In this document: positions 53,401 through 62,227 of the stretch, in pieces
Position numbering within the stretch: position 1 is the stretch's first letter
Layout: every line of letters begins with the position of its first letter
Assembly: GCF_003568845.1 (NCBI RefSeq)
Contig: NZ_CP030126.1
Span: 2,835,501 to 2,899,500 of the forward strand
DNA: 64,000 nucleotides
Reading direction: 5' to 3'
Origin: Indioceanicola profundi
GTDB lineage: Bacteria; Pseudomonadota; Alphaproteobacteria; Azospirillales; Azospirillaceae
The notes under the pieces: generated by a model
The model's database searches: none
What the model saw: only the letters and a program-made list of their open reading frames with translations
What the model was told of the DNA's origin: nothing
Translations under genes and position numbers: made by a program

Positions 53401-54607
53401 CTATCCCGCCTTCCGGGCCAGCTTCGGCTCGCCGAACAGGTAGCCCTGGCCGAAGTCGATATGCAGGTCCAGCAGCTCCAGGAGCTGCCTGTCCGTCTCC
53501 ACCTTCTCCGCGATCAGGTCGATGGCGTTGCGGTCGAGAAGGCCTTTGAGGTCCCGCGCGGCCTGCGGATCGGCGAAGGGACCGGCGGGGTCCAGCAGGC
53601 GGGCGGCGTCCAGCTTCACATGGCGGATTTCGTGACGGGCCATCTCCGCCCAGTCCACCTCCAGCCGCTCCACCTGATCCATGGAGAAGCGGAAGCCCAA
53701 GCGGCGCAACCCGTCCAGGAAGCCGGTGCTGAACGACCCGTCCGGCATCAGTTCGGCCTGCCCCAACTCGAACACCAGCTTGGCGGCAAGGTTGGGGTGC
53801 CGGCCGAGATATGAGGCGAACTCCTCCATGAAATCACGGTCGGCCAGGGTGGCGGCGGAGATGTTGTAGAAGAAGCCCACCGCCTGATGCCGCTTCTCCG
53901 TCTCGCGCAGGAGCTGGATGCAGCGGAACAGCAGCATGTTGTCGATCCCGGCGATCAGCCCGGCGCGTTGCGCCACCGGCAGATATTGTTCGGGCAGCAG
54001 ATGGGCGCCGTCGGCGCGGCGGATGCGGCTGAATACCTCGTAGTAGCGATGCTTGCGCTGGGGCAGGGAAGACGACGGGCTGAAGGAACAGGTCGATCCG
54101 GTCGGCGCGCAGGGCCTCCCGGATCTCCTCCAGAATGGCGGCGTCGGCAGGCGGCAGGGGGGCCGGGCCGGAGGCCCGTGGCGGCGCGAAGGTGGCGTCC
54201 AGGGGAAGCTGGGGCTGCGCCTCCGCCATGACGGGCTGCGCAGGTGCCGCCGGTTCCGGCACGGGGGCGGCAAGGCTTTCCAGCAGGCGGGCGTCGGACA
54301 GCAGCCTGTCCAGCTCCTGCAGGCTGGCCGGATGGCCGTCCAGCCGCTGTTCCAGCTTCAGCAGCAGCCCGCGGATGTCCGCCTGCCCCTCCTTCAGCCG
54401 CCAGAGCCGATGCTCCAGCCGCTCCCGCTCCTCCTGCCGCGCCCAGAATTCGTGCAGCAGCCCGCCGAAGACGAAGACCACCAGCCCGAACAGCAGGCCG
54501 GTATGGGGGTCCATTCCGTCCACGGAGAGCGGCAGGGTCAGCGCCACCGAGATGGCGATGGCGGTGTATACCGCCGCGAAGATGCCATGCCGCAGCCACC
54601 CGCCCAT
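53401..54607 (-). pseudogene. tipF: TipF-like degenerate EAL protein, broken by a one-base frameshift
   Basis: Two overlapping minus-strand frames join into one protein of about 402 residues if one base is removed from the AA at 54069-54070. It starts MGGWLRHGIFAAVY (ATG 54607 with AGGGGGG site), has two helices, a coiled coil (RQEERERLEHRLWRLKEG), an Ala/Pro linker, then an EAL domain. RIDLFLQPVV in the first frame joins SLPQRKHRYYEVFSR in the second, as in the EAL consensus. Key catalytic residues are replaced: EVF for EAL and DQVE for DDFG; GQGYLFGEP is kept. This two-helix, coiled-coil and inactive-EAL layout is that of Caulobacter TipF, a c-di-GMP receptor for flagellum placement. Either a true pseudogene or a base-call error. 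Confidence 0.75.
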
Positions 54608-54713
54608 ACCGCCCCCCTGCCCCGGACCATCCATACACGGTCAGGATGCGGCTACCCGCCTGGAGGGGAAATACCACTTTCGTGAGGGGGCGGGTTCCAT
54701 GTCCTCTCCCCTT

Positions 54714-54841
54714 ATCTCCGTCACTTGAGGTGCGCTACCTACCCTTCCACCCATCTCCGTCACCTGAGGGGCGGTGCCTACCCTTCCACCCATCTCCGTC
54801 ACCTGAGGAGCTGTACCTGCCCTTCCACCCATCTCCGTCAC
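54714..54841. repeat. Minisatellite, 39-bp unit
   Basis: Units start at 54714, 54753 and 54792, exactly 39 bases apart, with a fourth beginning at 54831 and running into the palindrome at 54836. Each begins ATCTCCGTCAC. The multiple of three means the minus strand reads a repeated 13-residue VTEMGGRVGTAPQ, but I find no support for a gene. Confidence 0.85.
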
Positions 54842-54918
54842 CCCGGCGAAAGCCGGGGCCCAGGAGTCCCAAGAGCCGTGCATGCGGCCCCTGGGTCCCG
54901 GCTTTCGCCGGGATGACG
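54836..54918. repeat. Palindromic repeat, CCCGGCGAAAGCCGGG arms
   Basis: The left arm (54836-54864) and right arm (54890-54918) are inverted copies differing at two positions; each contains its own small hairpin CCCGGC-GAAA-GCCGGG. This sequence type, read as GTCATCCCGGCGAAAGCC, is scattered in many proteobacterial genomes. It is flanked on the left by the 39-bp array and on the right by the 17-bp array. Confidence 0.85.
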
Positions 54919-54998
54919 ATGGAGAAGAGGTGACGATGGAGAAGAGATGACGGTGGAGAAGAGATGACGGTGGAGAAGGTATGACGGGGAGAAGGGAT
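54914..54998. repeat. Minisatellite, 17-bp unit
   Basis: TGACGATGGAGAAGAGG and variants start at 54914, 54931, 54948, 54965 and 54982, exactly 17 bases apart (five units, the last diverged). The unit begins with the outer end of the palindrome at 54836-54918. Confidence 0.85.
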
Positions 54999-55030
54999 AT
55001 CGAGGGGAAACAATGGCCGGCGAGCCGCCC

Positions 55031-56086
55031 CTACCGGTGATCCGCCCCCACTGCCTCGGCCACGCTGCGGAATCCGTCGCGGGCCAGCAGGTCCGCCAAT
55101 TCCCGCTTGATTCGGGTGACCAGGGCCGGGCCGTTGAAGGCCAGCGCGGTGTAGAGCTGCACCAGCGCGGCCCCGGCGCGGATCTTGGCATAGGCGTCGG
55201 CCCCGCTGGCGACACCGCCGACACCCACCAGCGGCACCCGCCCGCCGATCAGCCGGTGGAACTCCCCAAGCACCTGCGTGCTGGGCACCATCAGCGGCCG
55301 GCCGGACAGGCCGCCGGCCTCCTTCGCCAGCTCGGGCGGAATGATGTCCGGCCGGGCGATGGTGGTGTTGGAGACGATCAGCCCGTCGATGCCGCTGCCC
55401 AGCACCACCTCGGCGATGTCGGCCTTGTCCTGCTCCGCCAGGTCCGGGGCGACCTTCAGCAGCAGCGGCGGCTCCGCCCCGCTCTGCTTCCGCGCCTCCA
55501 AGCAGCGGGCCAGCAAGGCGGACAGGGCCTCCTTGCTCTGAAGCGTGCGCAGGCCCGGCGTGTTGGGGCTGGAGACGTTGACGACCAGATAGCTGGCGAA
55601 GGGGGCGGTACGGCGGATGCCGACGGCATAGTCGGCCGCCGCATCCTCCGTCTCCTTGTTCTTGCCGACATTGGCCCCGACAGCACCCGGCCGCTCGGCC
55701 CGCGCTTCCAGCCGGCCGGCGAAGGCGTCGATGCCTTGGTTGTTGAAGCCGAAGCGGTTGATCACGGCCCCGGCCGCCGGAATGCGGAACAGGCGGGGGC
55801 GCGGATTGCCAGGTTGCGGGCGGGGGGTGACGGTGCCGGCCTCCACCAGCCCGAATCCCAGCTTCAGCATGGCGTCCGGCACCTCGGCATTCTTGTCGAA
55901 GCCGGCCGCCAGCCCGATGGGGTTCGGCAGTTCCAGACCCAGCACGCGGGTGCGCAGGATGTCCGGGTCCCTGCCGCCGGCCGGGGGCACCAGCCCGGTC
56001 TTCAGGGCGCGGATGGTCAGCTCATGCGCCTGCTCCGGGTCCATGCGCAGCAGGAAGGGTCGGGCCAGCGGATAGAGATCGACCAA
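55031..56086 (-). CDS. pyrD: Dihydroorotate dehydrogenase (quinone), class 2
   Basis: A 351-residue FMN enzyme of pyrimidine synthesis that passes electrons to ubiquinone at the inner membrane. LELPNPIGLAAGFDKNAE, NRFGFNNQG, VNVSSPNTPGLR (class 2 catalytic serine) and LVGVGGVASGADAYAKIRAGAALVQLYTAL are family motifs; the N-terminal PLARPFLLRMDPEQAHELTIRAL helix pair is the membrane-binding part. The start is a TTG at 56086 preceded by AGGGGGG at an ideal distance, one base after the DUF952 stop, so the two genes are coupled. Confidence 0.95.
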   Translation of the reverse strand: MVDLYPLARPFLLRMDPEQAHELTIRALKTGLVPPAGGRDPDILRTRVLGLELPNPIGLAAGFDKNAEVPDAMLKLGFGLVEAGTVTPRPQPGNPRPRLFRIPAAGAVINRFGFNNQGIDAFAGRLEARAERPGAVGANVGKNKETEDAAADYAVGIRRTAPFASYLVVNVSSPNTPGLRTLQSKEALSALLARCLEARKQSGAEPPLLLKVAPDLAEQDKADIAEVVLGSGIDGLIVSNTTIARPDIIPPELAKEAGGLSGRPLMVPSTQVLGEFHRLIGGRVPLVGVGGVASGADAYAKIRAGAALVQLYTALAFNGPALVTRIKRELADLLARDGFRSVAEAVGADHR

Positions 56087-56087
56087 G

Positions 56088-56495
56088 TCAGCCCCCCTGC
56101 TCCGACAGGAAGCCGGCATCCTTGTCGCGCGCCGCGACCTCCGCCAGATGGGGCGGGAAGACGTGCAGCCCGTCCGGCCCCAGCGGCAGCGGGTCCACCC
56201 GCACCGCTGCCCCGACCGGCAGGGCGCCGTAGAGATGCGGGAAAAGCTGCCCACCCCGCGACGGCTCCCACTTCAGGGCAGCGCCCAGCGCCGTGGCATC
56301 CACGGTCAGCAGCAGCAGGCCGGTCTGGCCGGCGCGGTGCTTCGCCGCACTGACGGGCAGTTGCCCGGCGGTGGAGAAATGGATGAAGCCGTCCGCCCGG
56401 TCCTGGGAGGAGCCGGGATAGGCGCCGGCGTCCCGCGCGGCCTCCCATTCCTCGGCACGGCACATATGGAAGATGGTGGTGGGATGCTGGCTCAT
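56088..56495 (-). CDS. DUF952 family protein
   Basis: This 135-residue protein contains the DUF952 signature FHMCRAEEWEAARDAGAYPGSSQDRADGFIHFST and later LKWEPSRGGQLFPHLYGALP. The family adopts an ADP-ribosyltransferase-like fold of unknown biochemical role. It is frequently encoded next to pyrD in alphaproteobacteria, and here their reading frames are one base apart. Cytosolic. Confidence 0.9.
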   Translation of the reverse strand: MSQHPTTIFHMCRAEEWEAARDAGAYPGSSQDRADGFIHFSTAGQLPVSAAKHRAGQTGLLLLTVDATALGAALKWEPSRGGQLFPHLYGALPVGAAVRVDPLPLGPDGLHVFPPHLAEVAARDKDAGFLSEQGG

Positions 56496-57949: not shown

Positions 57950-59470
57950 TCAGGGGGTGAAGTCGGCCTCGGCCCGGTGCGGGACGGCGGCCATGGGGAA
58001 TGCCGGCGGGCGCACCGCGCCGGGGGCGGGCTTTCCGGCGGGCAGCCGCAGGGGCTCCGCCAGCAGGCAGCCGGCCAGGGCGTCCAGCCCGTCGTCGGGA
58101 CCGGCGCCCTCCGGCCGCCAGTCCCGCATCTCGGCGATCAGGGGTGTTGCGAAGACGCCGGCATGGGCGTGCAGCATGCCGGCGGCCAGCCGCGCCTCGA
58201 TCCCCTCCTGGATGCGCTGGGCCTTGGGCGCGCGGCTGACCTCCTTGCAGACGGAGACGGCCAGCCCGTGCCGGGCCAGCACCCCCCGCAGAAGCTGGGG
58301 CAGGAAGCCGCCAACCCCATTGGCCTCCACATGCAGGGTCCGCACCGGCACGCTCCGGAGCAGGCCGGCCACGGCCTCGCACTGGGCCTGCGCCGATTCC
58401 TCCGCCGCCCCGGCGGAGAGATATTCGATGCGGTGGAGCCAGGCGTCGCCCTCTGCCCCGAAGAACACCACCGCCACCACGCTGGCATCTCCGCCGGCCC
58501 GCGCCAGCGACGGGTCCCACCAGGCCCGGGCGGAGACGACGCGACGCCCCGCCAGCTCCATCACCGGCCGCCGCCCCGCCTCGCGGTAGAGGATCTCCGC
58601 ATCGTAGCGCCTCAGCAGCTCCGGGTTCAGCAGACCGGCGACCACCGGCACGGGCTTCAGCATCATCTGGCTGGCGAAGCGGCTGGGGCCGGAGAGGGTG
58701 CGGATGCGGCTGATCTCCTCCTGCCCGAACACCTCCGGCCAGACGGGACCGCGGGAGCCCTCGACCGGGATTTCCAGCCTGTGGAAGCCGGCCAGGAACG
58801 GTTCCGCCCCGCCCGGCCCCGGCTCCGCCCCATAGATGCTGTCGGCGGCATGGGGCGTGCCGATATAGAGCACGGTGCCGCCGGGGACGAGCACATGGGT
58901 GATCTCCCCCAGCCGCCGCCGCAGCTCCGCCCGCGCATGGGCGGTGGCGCAGGTGTTCGGCACCTCCACATCGTCGCAGATCACGATGTCGGCATGGCTG
59001 CCGGTGAAGTTCGCCCCGATGCCCTTGGCCAGCATGGAGGGATCGCGCGAGGTACCCGCCCGCGCCACGGTCAGCGCATCGGCGCCCCAGAGCTCGATCT
59101 TCGGCGGCCGGAGGCCGATGCAGACCGGATGGCGTTCCAGCACATGCTTGACGGTGCGCACCATCTTGGCCGCCAGCTCATCCTCCGCCGCCAGCACCAG
59201 GATGCGGATATCCGGATCGCCGGCCAGCGCCCAGGCGCAGAACAGGCCGGCGACGCTGCTCTTGCCGCTGCCGCGGAAGGCCAGCAGCAGCAGATCCCGC
59301 CGCCCTTCCCGCCACGCCCTTCCCAGCCACCCGGCCATCCAGAGCTGCGGCGGCGGCAGGTTCCGCCCCTCATGCTCCGCCCACATCTGGGCGAATTCGG
59401 GAAAGGGCACCTTCTCGGTCCAGGGCAGCGGGCCGGGGATGGAAGTCGGCGCACTCTCCGCTCCGGTCAT
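57950..59470 (-). CDS. Phage terminase, large subunit
   Basis: This is a 506-residue DNA-packaging motor. The ATPase has Walker A FRGSGKSS (residues 65-72) and Walker B IVICDDVEV (162-170), followed by the coupling segment LVPGGTVLYIGTPH. The C-terminal nuclease part contains ARAWWDPSLARAGGDASVVAVVFF and later HVEANGVGGFLPQLL. The FRGSGKS form is common in T7-like TerL proteins. The ATG at 59470 overlaps the preceding gene by four bases. Confidence 0.9.
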   Translation of the reverse strand: MTGAESAPTSIPGPLPWTEKVPFPEFAQMWAEHEGRNLPPPQLWMAGWLGRAWREGRRDLLLLAFRGSGKSSVAGLFCAWALAGDPDIRILVLAAEDELAAKMVRTVKHVLERHPVCIGLRPPKIELWGADALTVARAGTSRDPSMLAKGIGANFTGSHADIVICDDVEVPNTCATAHARAELRRRLGEITHVLVPGGTVLYIGTPHAADSIYGAEPGPGGAEPFLAGFHRLEIPVEGSRGPVWPEVFGQEEISRIRTLSGPSRFASQMMLKPVPVVAGLLNPELLRRYDAEILYREAGRRPVMELAGRRVVSARAWWDPSLARAGGDASVVAVVFFGAEGDAWLHRIEYLSAGAAEESAQAQCEAVAGLLRSVPVRTLHVEANGVGGFLPQLLRGVLARHGLAVSVCKEVSRAPKAQRIQEGIEARLAAGMLHAHAGVFATPLIAEMRDWRPEGAGPDDGLDALAGCLLAEPLRLPAGKPAPGAVRPPAFPMAAVPHRAEADFTP

Positions 59471-59775
59471 CCCAGCACCTCCTTGATCTGGTCGGCATAG
59501 GGGCTTTGATCCGCGATGCGGTGGACATGCTCGGTCATCAGCTCCGCCACCCGGCGCATCTGGGCCGTGGTGACGGCGTCCCCTTCCGGATCGGCCTTCT
59601 CGGCGGCCTCCGCCGCCAGCTTCGCCATCTTGAAGAGCCGCTCCGCCGTGGTCAGCACGGCATGCAGCTCCGCCTCGCTCTTGTCCCCGTCCAGCCGCTT
59701 CAGCGCCATCTCCATGGCGGCCGGCAGGGCCTTCGACAGCGCCTCGCAGCATGCTTCCAAAGCCGTGTCGGACAT
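59467..59775 (-). CDS. Candidate phage terminase small subunit
   Basis: A 102-residue, all-helical acidic protein whose stop overlaps the terL start (ATGA). The first part (ALPAAMEMALKRLDGDKSEAELHAVLTTAERLFKMAKLA) resembles the oligomerisation helices of small terminases, but no clear helix-turn-helix is seen. The assignment rests mainly on position. Confidence 0.55.
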   Translation of the reverse strand: MSDTALEACCEALSKALPAAMEMALKRLDGDKSEAELHAVLTTAERLFKMAKLAAEAAEKADPEGDAVTTAQMRRVAELMTEHVHRIADQSPYADQIKEVLG

Positions 59776-59865
59776 GGGTCTCCATCCTGGTTGTTGTGAG
59801 TGGGCTGGGGTGGTTTTCCGAGCCTCGCTGTTGGCACCGCGCCGAATCGCACAGCCACAATCCCC

Positions 59866-62227
59866 CTACACCCTCGCCACCACATGCCAGGCGGCGCCGT
59901 TGGACAGCACCGTCGCCCCCGCATGCTGCGCGCCCAGCGCCAGCGCCGCCCCGTCGGGTCCGGTGCCGCCGGCCACCGTCACGGTGACGGGGTTGCCGCC
60001 GGGGTCCGTCTTCTTCACCACGACCACCGCCCCCGAATTGGCCGCCGCCGGAGCCGGCAGGCGGGCCTCCACCGGGCCGGCGAAGGCGCTGACCAGATAG
60101 GCCTCCGCCCCCAGATCGATGGGCAGCAGCCCCGCCGCCTCGTGGTACTGCACACTGCGCGGGGCGGAGCGGGCGCCGGTGACCCACCAGTTGCCGCCAT
60201 TGCTGGCGACCGTGACGAAGTCGTAGCGCTTGCCCAGCCGCCGGACCCGCCCGTCCGGCCCGGCCCCGCCCTGTTCCGTCACCAGCACGGCATGGGCGGA
60301 CTCATCGGACTTCTTGATGGTGACGCTGCGCCCCGCCCCGGCGGAGGCCGGCGGAAGGCGCACCTCCAGCTCCCCCGCCGCGGCGCTGACGAGATAGAGC
60401 GGCTTCAGCAGGTCCGGCGTGAACGGCCCCGGCCCCTCCACGAACTCCGTATTGGCGGGCATGAGGTTGGAGGAGGTCACCCACCAGCCGTGGCCGTTGC
60501 TGATGGCGGTGAGCTGGTCGTGCCGGCAGGCCAGCACCACCGGCGCCCCGTCCGGCCCCGGCCCGCCATCCACGGTCACCGTCACCGGATTGGCGCTGCC
60601 ATCCGTCTTCTTGACGGTGACGGTGCGGCCGATATGGGTTCCGGCGGGGGGAAGCCGGAACTCCACCGGCCCGCCATAGGCGCTGACGAACCAGATCGTG
60701 CAGCCCTCGATGTCCGGTTCCACCAGCCCGCCGGCAGCGGGCTCCACATACTCCGTCTCCAGCCGCAGCCCTTCCAGCATCAGGTCGCTGATGCGGGTCT
60801 GCTTCAGATCGTTGCGCAGCGGAAAGCCGGCATTGACGGCGCTGTAGGCGCGCGCGTCGGTGGTGTCCCAGATCGGCATGCCGGCGGTGGCGCTGAACAG
60901 GTTGACGATGCTGGTGTTCCGGCTGCCGCCGTCGATGCGGATGCCGGGCAGCGCGCCGGCACTTTCCGCATAGAAGTTGACGATCAAATTCTGGTCCGTC
61001 GCCGCGCCCAGCCGCAGGCAGGCCTCGCCGCCCGGATGCAAATTCGCCTCGCAATCCACGAAGCTGTTGTTGAAGCGGCCGGCGGACAGGAAGAAGCCGC
61101 AGCCGCTCATGGGCGCGGCCAGGCTGTAGACCCGGACATCGTGGAACTTGTTGGCGTTCGGCGTGTCGCCGCTGCTCTCCACCGTCAACAGCACGCCGTG
61201 GATCTGCGGCCGCGCCACCAGCACCCGGCCGACATGGTTCCAGTAGCAGGGCCGGTCCGGGCTGCTGTAGCCGTCCAGCACAATGCCGATCATGCTGTCC
61301 CAGATGGACAGGTTCTCCACCACATTCTTCACGCAAGGCCCGTCACGACCGTAGAGCTTCACCCCCGACGCCCCGCCCACGATGCGCAGGTTCCGCAGGG
61401 CGGCGTAGCTGTCCACCAACTCCACCGCGTTGAACTGGCTGGGATAGGAGGGCAGGTTGACGGCGTCGTAGGGCTGGTCGCGCGCCTGGATCACGCTGGC
61501 CTCCCCCACCCCGGTCAGGCTCTGCCCGTGGCCCAGCGTGATGGTGCCGGTGGTGCGGTAGGTGCCGGCCGGCAGGAACACCGCCCCATGGGCGGCCAGC
61601 GCGGCCTGGATAGCATGGGTGTCGTCCACGATGCCGTCGCCAGCCGCACCGAAATCCTTGGCGCTGACCATGTCGCCCAGCTTGTCGCGCATGCTGCGCC
61701 GCACGGCCCCGCCGCCCCTGGGCACGAAGGTGCCGTCCGCCCCGATCGGCCGGCGGCCGGGCCACGGGGTTCCCGGCCTCGTCGAAGCCCAGCACCATCC
61801 CGGCCCGTGCGGCGCGGGCGGGCAGCAGCCCGTCCGCCGGCAGGTCCGTTTCCGGATAGCGCACCATACGGGCCTGGTCCGCCTGCAATTGCTGGGCGAT
61901 GGCCGTCAACCGGCTGAGCTGGTCGTTCAGCGTGCGGGCGGAAAGCGGGCCGCTTTCCAGGAAGTCGCTCCGCCGGGAGATCGCCAGCCGCCGGCTGATC
62001 GTCACCACGGTGCCCGCGGCCGGGGCAGCGTCGAAGCGGACGCTGCCCCCTGCCGCCTGTCCGATCCCGGCCACGGTGAAGCCGGTGGGCTGGGGGGCGG
62101 CGTCCAGGAAGATCTGCAGATCGCCGGCCTCGAACACCGGAAAGGAGAAGCCGAACACGGCCCCCTGCCCGTCCGCCACATACTGCACGCGCGGGCTCAC
62201 CGCCGGCAGCGCTGCTTGCTCGGTCAT
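59866..62227 (-). pseudogene. T7-type tail spike/pectate-lyase-like protein, frameshifted
   Basis: Two frames join into one protein of about 787 residues if one base is removed near 61745. The N-terminal part from the ATG at 62227 (SPRVQYVADGQGAVFGFSFPVFEAGDLQIFLD, SRRLAISRRSDFLESGPLSARTLNDQL) is the phage_T7_tail adaptor. The second frame continues with DGTFVPRGG and VSAKDFGAAGDGIVDDTHAIQAAL, the usual start of a pectate-lyase beta-helix that binds or cleaves capsule. Three tandem 80-residue modules close the protein (about 60706-60470, 60411-60176, 60114-59869), each with YLVSA-like, RLPP, VKK(T/S)D, GPDG and SNG-x-x-WWVT blocks. A GTG at 61725 might restart the second part. Confidence 0.75.

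Follow-up and report, generated by a model that had tools for sequence, protein, structure and literature searches.

Two different minisatellites abut the two ends of a single palindrome in the window of the Indioceanicola profundi genome analysed here (the whole stretch of 64,000 nucleotides, to which the positions below refer). Each array is made of tandem copies of a junction, in which the outer bases of the palindrome (about 7, or 12 with an outward extension) are joined to flanking DNA. Judged by its sequence, the palindrome consists of two CGTC-tagged REP-like units arranged head to head. Boundary duplications of the same kind recur at other REP ends in this genome and elsewhere, on either side of the element and with a unit that is specific to each locus. 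We consider it probable (about 60%) that such arrays arise by a hairpin-provoked slipped duplication of the boundary between palindrome and flank, which would then be extended by ordinary tandem-repeat slippage or unequal exchange.

Two arrays at the ends of one palindrome

The locus lies between a gene for dihydroorotate dehydrogenase and an EAL-domain gene, and comprises the following features.

53401..54634, - strand: EAL-domain gene, downstream neighbour; two overlapping frames, 54634-53834 and 54273-53401
54714..54842: left array; 39-bp period, 3.3 copies, 91% matches, TRF score 209
54836..54918: palindrome of 83 bp; inverted repeat with arms 54836-54871 and 54883-54918
54836..54863, + strand: left REP unit; CGTC tag at 54836-54839, GAAA loop, CCCAG tail
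54891..54918, - strand: right REP unit; CGTC tag at 54918-54915, REP core match at 54897-54912 on the - strand
54912..54998: right array; 17-bp period, 5.2 copies, 88% matches, TRF score 118
55031..56110 (putative start), - strand: pyrD (dihydroorotate dehydrogenase), upstream neighbour; Pfam DHO_dh, 2.8e-83

The gap between pyrD and the EAL gene (54635-55030, 396 bp) thus holds the left array, the palindrome and the right array. Tandem Repeats Finder (TRF), applied to the full 64 kb, returned six arrays, of which the pair flanking the palindrome scored highest, the other four reaching 53-59. The palindrome has arms of 36 nt that are 86% complementary about an 11-nt centre, and each array shares 7 bp with its palindrome end. 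This overlap at both ends of the inverted repeat bears out the report, in an initial annotation of this DNA, of a 39-bp and a 17-bp array flanking an 83-bp palindrome. The RNA fold of positions 54831-54925 has an energy of -73.5 kcal/mol, whereas shuffles average -41.1; z is -8.98, and 0 of 200 shuffles did as well.

Comparison of the printed units agrees with the further proposal that they start with the outer bases of the palindrome itself. On the left, every 39-bp unit starts with ATCTCCGTCAC; the unit consists of ATCTCCGTCAC(C), which is the left terminus of the palindrome plus an outward extension, and 27 bp of flank. The tag is present four times, and the units show 4-5 differences from one another. 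On the right, GATGACG, the right terminus of the palindrome, is joined to ATGGAGAAGA; TGACG(A/G)TGGAGAAG is found in units 1-4, and the fifth and last unit is degenerate and the most divergent. Read outward, the left side runs GGGGTGACGGAGATGGGTGGAAGGG... and the right side GGGATGACGATGGAGAAGAGG..., the boundary being repeated outward from about GTGACG or GATGACG in these arrays. The end sequences originally quoted as complements of each other depart from exact complementarity: TCTCCGTCA has TGACGGAGA as its reverse complement, whereas the palindrome's right end is TGACGATGGAGA, which contains three additional bases.

Several minor features of the region were recorded. The Pfam EAL match (9.7e-35) falls in frame 54273-53401, and none falls in frame 54634-53834; the matches in 20 relatives each fall in one open frame of at least about 400 codons, with one internal stop in two of the 20, and the two frames here would reflect a frameshift in the gene or a slip in the assembly. 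A search of 54500-55200 against Rfam gave only matches far below gathering scores, mostly to microRNA families. An intrinsic terminator was considered and set aside, 54600-55100 containing no site with a GC stem and T run. A small ORF at 54641-54883, which runs through the left array (39 bp corresponding to 13 codons), has no Pfam match and was taken as spurious. Farther along the window, at 57950-61725 on the - strand, are ORFs that we take, by eye, to resemble phage terminase and tail-type proteins.

The palindrome resembles a CGTC-tagged REP dimer

The left end of the dimer is of a C type (CGTCACC) and the right end of a T type (CGTCATC, on the reverse strand), and the consensus of each half is CGTCAyCCCGGCGAAAGCCGGGryCCAG. 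Searched by BLAST against its own 5.37-Mb genome, the palindrome matched 67 times, on both strands and exclusively on contig C1. Allowing up to 3 mismatches, 58 REP units were found versus none with the reversed pattern, and two-ended dimer copies numbered 26 among those displayed. The CGTC that stands outside the stem is present in the window palindrome and at most ends of these 26 copies; altered tags include TGTC in L007, L010 and L022, and CCTC in L020.

CGTC-tagged REPs, in the portions of their description available to us (Di Nocera et al. 2013, PMC3733652), possess a CGTC tag, a loop of 4-5 nt and a CCA-like tail, occur mostly as head-to-head dimers, are predominant in Alphaproteobacteria, and are tied to no transposase. 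The window element is alike in its tag, in its 4-nt GAAA loop and CCCAG tail, and in forming head-to-head dimers that have no linked transposase (26 two-ended copies, the only Y1_Tnp locus of the genome being without a CGTC REP). It differs in its stem. The same portions of PMC3733652 give a stem of 8-9 bp with a complementary A and T almost invariably at the first two positions, whereas the REPs here have a 7-bp stem (CCCCGGC/GCCGGGG or TCCCGGC/GCCGGGA) with no T opposite the first A, which places the element outside all four published CGTC families. We regard it as a CGTC-REP-like variant, very like the CGTC-tagged REPs in construction and behaviour.

Duplicated termini at other REP ends

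For each REP end a 12-base probe, made of the final 8 bases of the element and 4 bases of flank, was sought outward over 40 bp and counted as recurring at 10/12 matches or better; ends that lack TGAC or lie less than 50 bases from the end of a locus were skipped. The sample comprised 30 loci from this genome and 60 from G012, G090, G088 and G009, four of at least 13 other genomes with matches, whose sites were taken in part (G090:C16, G088:C289 and G009:C100, for example, being left out). In its own genome the terminus recurred at 6 of 52 REP ends, compared with 12 of 2238 distant control windows, the other 46 ends having no terminus repeat; in the four related genomes it recurred at 9 of 114 ends, compared with 20 of 3281 control windows. 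Shuffled flanks predicted 0.43 and 0.94 recurrences, respectively (P 5e-6 and 5e-7). Swapping of flanks between loci predicted 0.93 for the own genome (P 3e-4) and 4.97 for the others (P 0.06), so that the signal in the latter may partly reflect shared outward sequence, or arrays among the swapped flanks. At most eight of those nine matches are independent, since two (L123 and L124) belong to one 1.25-kb segment, 97% identical, at two places. Another of the nine (L158) is a weak case in a run of G. The copied segment, in G012, is inverted at its two places and bordered by CGTC REP ends, with like spacing in L128; it would fit a mobile element in or beside REP dimers.

In the 30 own loci, TRF showed that L008, L013 and L018 each carry a duplication in two copies, 13-21 bp long, at their right end; long arrays, and arrays on both sides, appeared at the window locus only. 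Arrays beside other copies of the palindrome, which the initial annotation had proposed looking for, are therefore represented by smaller duplications of like kind, clearest at these three loci, and the arrays of the window do not stand alone in the genome. Chance resemblance in GC-rich intergenic DNA could contribute to such counts, as purine-rich outward flanks raise the background of matches and the excess over swapped flanks is weak in the other genomes; but the observed counts greatly exceed those of every control, whether shuffled flanks, distant windows or reversed patterns. These controls refute chance as a full account, and we regard an origin by coincidence or composition as extremely improbable. 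The comparison supports the palindrome as the probable seed of the arrays, and to that extent upholds the earlier suggestion that it seeded them by slippage or unequal exchange, two processes that sequence alone cannot separate.

Recurrence in other bacteria

A scan of genome contigs, in which a REP end had to be succeeded by two further GATGACG tags, yielded at least 117 stretches with at least three tags, spread across several phyla. The matches include Alpha-, Beta- and Gammaproteobacteria, Actinobacteria (Micropruina, Propionicimonas, Nocardia), Chloroflexi (Dehalococcoidia), Elusimicrobia, Kapaibacterium and others. Their spread may include binning errors, because many are metagenome-assembled genomes (MAGs), but that of Micropruina glycogenica is a complete chromosome. 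The latter (genome G098; L213, L216 and L226) contains 219 exact GCCGGGATGACG ends. CGTC repeats have been listed for five phyla, with Actinobacteria absent from the list as given in the accessible part of the source (PMC3733652).

Statistics were compiled on 119 arrays from 116 of these loci, chosen by their three tags and not by likeness of their spacers; L295 was left out (loop bound), and sequences with identical first 60 bases were dropped. The first 10 spacer bases differed by a mean distance of 0.20 within a locus versus 0.60 between loci, and distances of 0.2 or less made up 62% of comparisons within loci versus 0.6% between them. The first period is most often 18-19 bp. A partner REP was found within 170 bp for 86 of the 119 arrays, and six of the 86 (one of them, L282, doubtful) have repeats on both sides; arrays on both ends of a dimer are thus uncommon. 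A second bilateral case is a dimer of Sphingomonas kyeonggiensis (G102:C1:260232-260370), with different two-copy repeats on its two ends. The distal unit was more divergent than the proximal one in 13 arrays versus 4, with 5 ties (22 arrays), a count not used as evidence because the last unit is biased toward being a chance or partial copy.

An exact two-copy pattern, GCCGGGATGACG followed by a second GGGATGACG, was matched 147 times in 10 genomes, several times per long array, and never when reversed; the 12-base REP end alone was matched 1160 times versus 5 for its reverse. Seven of these 10 genomes were picked from the matches of the three-tag scan, and the set is not an unbiased sample. 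The two-copy pattern has no exact match in the own genome, where the copies carry substitutions. With like arrays at related palindromes in many bacteria, such palindromes look like recurrent starting points of minisatellites.

Order of events and array turnover

Neighbouring gene order in relatives offers some indication of which came first. In 12 of 20 relatives pyrD lies inside the compared locus, and in 10 its distance from the EAL gene could be measured: counted in one and the same way, it is 397 here, versus -26 to +52 in six of the 10, including the three best matches, and 126-355 in the other four. A pattern search for the CGTC hairpin found none in the 20 relative loci, and TRF detected no comparable array in the pyrD-EAL gap of the 12, L071 having only a 12-bp repeat of 2.3 copies (score 42). 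The simplest reading is that the palindrome arrived first and the arrays formed later. The reverse order, in which the palindrome was inserted into an existing tandem array by preference for CGTC-like, pyrimidine-rich targets, derives something from the flanks upstream of the tag, often pyrimidine-rich by eye, and from the left unit, which is mostly non-element sequence. We judge it very unlikely, in view of the gaps without comparable arrays, of units that vary from locus to locus, and of orthologous REPs that have different units or carry them on opposite sides.

Two pairs of loci exhibit the latter differences. L220 and L247, from two MAG species and 87% identical over 2.3 kb, have one REP at the same site with 3 versus 4 tag copies and different spacers. 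L186 and L204, from two Sphingomonas species, apparently share one dimer, with a three-tag array on the right in one (and two tags on its left) and on the left in the other; their right flanks can be aligned, whereas on the left L204 is longer by about 0.8 kb, and two separate insertions may therefore be involved. Taken as orthologues, the two pairs differ in copy number, unit or side of the array and would show array turnover. All such comparisons are between species: the genus is represented by one genome, and a genome-contig scan with the neighbouring protein found no close relative. Hypervariability and value for strain typing, as put forward in the initial annotation, are candidate properties of the window locus.

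Slippage, breakage and transposition

The events that we favour would begin with entry of the dimer between pyrD and the EAL gene, which abut or overlap in the three best-matching relatives. At the base of the REP hairpin DNA synthesis would stall or be broken off; the newly made strand would then slip back over short homology, duplicating a boundary segment (a few to about 12 stem bases plus flank) on either side. Once two copies were present, slipped-strand mispairing or unequal exchange could lengthen or shorten the array. Both ends of the window dimer would have expanded independently, one with a 39-bp and the other with a 17-bp unit, and no cellular function is needed to explain the arrays. 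A point against slippage is the 27 bp of non-element sequence in the left unit, which is long for a slip.

Breakage is the main rival. A hairpin-opening nuclease such as SbcCD would cut the extruded hairpin close to the loop, and the half-stem and flank would be duplicated as the break is repaired; the proposal differs from slippage in that it needs a break. The number of REP bases reused in the second unit peaks at 12 (28 of 119 arrays), ending at the stem-loop boundary and thereby matching exactly the 3' half-stem, with a drop-out rate of 0.49 at position 12 versus 0.20-0.21 at positions 9, 10 and 13. A second and broader group of 59 arrays, however, reuses 7-10 bases, a number that cutting at the loop does not produce, and in the window only about 7 are reused. 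The reuse count is moreover distorted by the G-rich composition of spacers, and drop-out is also high at positions 16-19, where arrays are few.

The side on which repeats lie relative to replication also bears on the choice. In Micropruina glycogenica 8 were ter-ward versus 11 ori-ward, a few of these 19 cases repeating the whole REP or having a long spacer; in the own genome 4 were ter-ward versus 2, with L013 close to the assumed terminus. Sides were counted by hand with neighbouring matches merged and the terminus assumed opposite dnaA. No side is clearly preferred, which counts against a simple lagging-strand model, since that model predicts a side, and is in keeping with breakage. On balance, breakage strikes us as unlikely. 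We are similarly doubtful of a broader proposition built on it, that CGTC-tagged REPs are general minisatellite generators, in which hairpin opening at the loop boundary, by breakage and not by lagging-strand slippage, would repeatedly copy half-stem and flank outward and leave small arrays, specific to their locus and evolving independently, as the main visible trace of hairpin instability across several phyla.

Arrays might instead be made by a transposase, an IS200/RAYT-like HUH enzyme nicking beside the CGTC tag and leaving, by abortive or repeated insertion, tandem footprints of tag and flank. According to the portion of PMC8266576 at hand, the transposase of GTAG-type REPs makes its cut near the REP, on the 5' or the 3' side. 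The own genome does have one Y1_Tnp gene, encoding 173 aa (L001 1339-1860, - strand; C1:2600000-2600739). We take its product to be RAYT-like. The gene lies between inverted GTAGGTCGGCGCCGAGCG repeats, which are GTAG-tagged and not of the CGTC kind; mobilization of the window dimer as a REPIN by this RAYT was rejected on that ground. A third exact copy of GTAGGTCGGCGCCGAGCG occurs at C1:3335830, and its 18-mer at 3 mismatches has 30 matches versus 58 for the reversed control; the family is tiny, being no commoner than that control.

Among nine array-bearing genomes, three gave no match to the Y1 transposase, two of these being drafts of unknown completeness, and at the 8 transposase loci of the other six no CGTC REP (up to 1 substitution) was found within 1.5 kb. 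A resident Y1 transposase thus seems not to be needed for the arrays. Nor is a transposase tied to CGTC repeats in the sections of PMC3733652 that we could draw on, although an enzyme since lost, or missed in a draft, may exist. A transposase origin accordingly appears quite improbable to us.

Relation to known repeats and significance

Several repeat systems share some properties of these arrays. Tandem REPIN clusters of Pseudomonas fluorescens SBW25 were reportedly studied by Bertels and Rainey in 2011, and Brucella HOOF-Print arrays are, we presume, linked to a palindromic element. In the SBW25 clusters, as far as the accessible account goes, a palindromic doublet and its flanking DNA are in tandem, some clusters lying beside RAYTs (PMC3116915); the whole REPIN is repeated there, whereas the window locus keeps a single hairpin and repeats no more than its outer end. 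Similarly, the parts of PMC3733652 available describe clusters and tandem reiteration of whole CGTC repeats with flanks, unlike the terminal tag and few flank bases repeated at the ends in the window. Neisseria dRS3, equated there with CGTC-1, participates in NIME arrays, intergenic mosaics built from dRS3 (20 bp) and RS elements (30-160 bp) (PMC3898611); these are intergenic like the arrays of the window, but tandem boundary duplications are not described in the portion of that source available. Brucella HOOF-Print octamers form short, strain-variable VNTR arrays at several loci and are used for typing; in the accessible parts of PMC1183211 and PMC7589603 one 8-bp unit is common to all loci, whereas units of the CGTC-REP arrays differ from one locus to another. 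Tandem whole REPINs with flanks, dRS3/RS mosaics and octamer VNTRs are thus already known; arrays that repeat the terminal tag and a few bases of flank at the ends of CGTC REPs, of which our searches of an open-access library gave no account, may be new.

The first appearance of a bacterial minisatellite can seldom be observed, since its seed disappears within the array. In the present case the seed is still there beside the array and can be recognised, in some species at several to dozens of REP ends in each genome. Counts can therefore be made of birth, side, unit length and breakpoint, and hairpin-provoked duplication becomes testable with natural data. REPs of the CGTC type, which have no known transposase, gain by this a visible effect on genome change. 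The short tandem units at the window locus have the structure of a VNTR, as determined by TRF and unit comparison, and the outer ends of REP dimers offer a pointer in the search for typing loci. A microsatellite-like version is seen in Seongchinamella unica, where a REP end (L230, near 3421) runs into a long 7-bp array of TGACGGG/TGACGGA.
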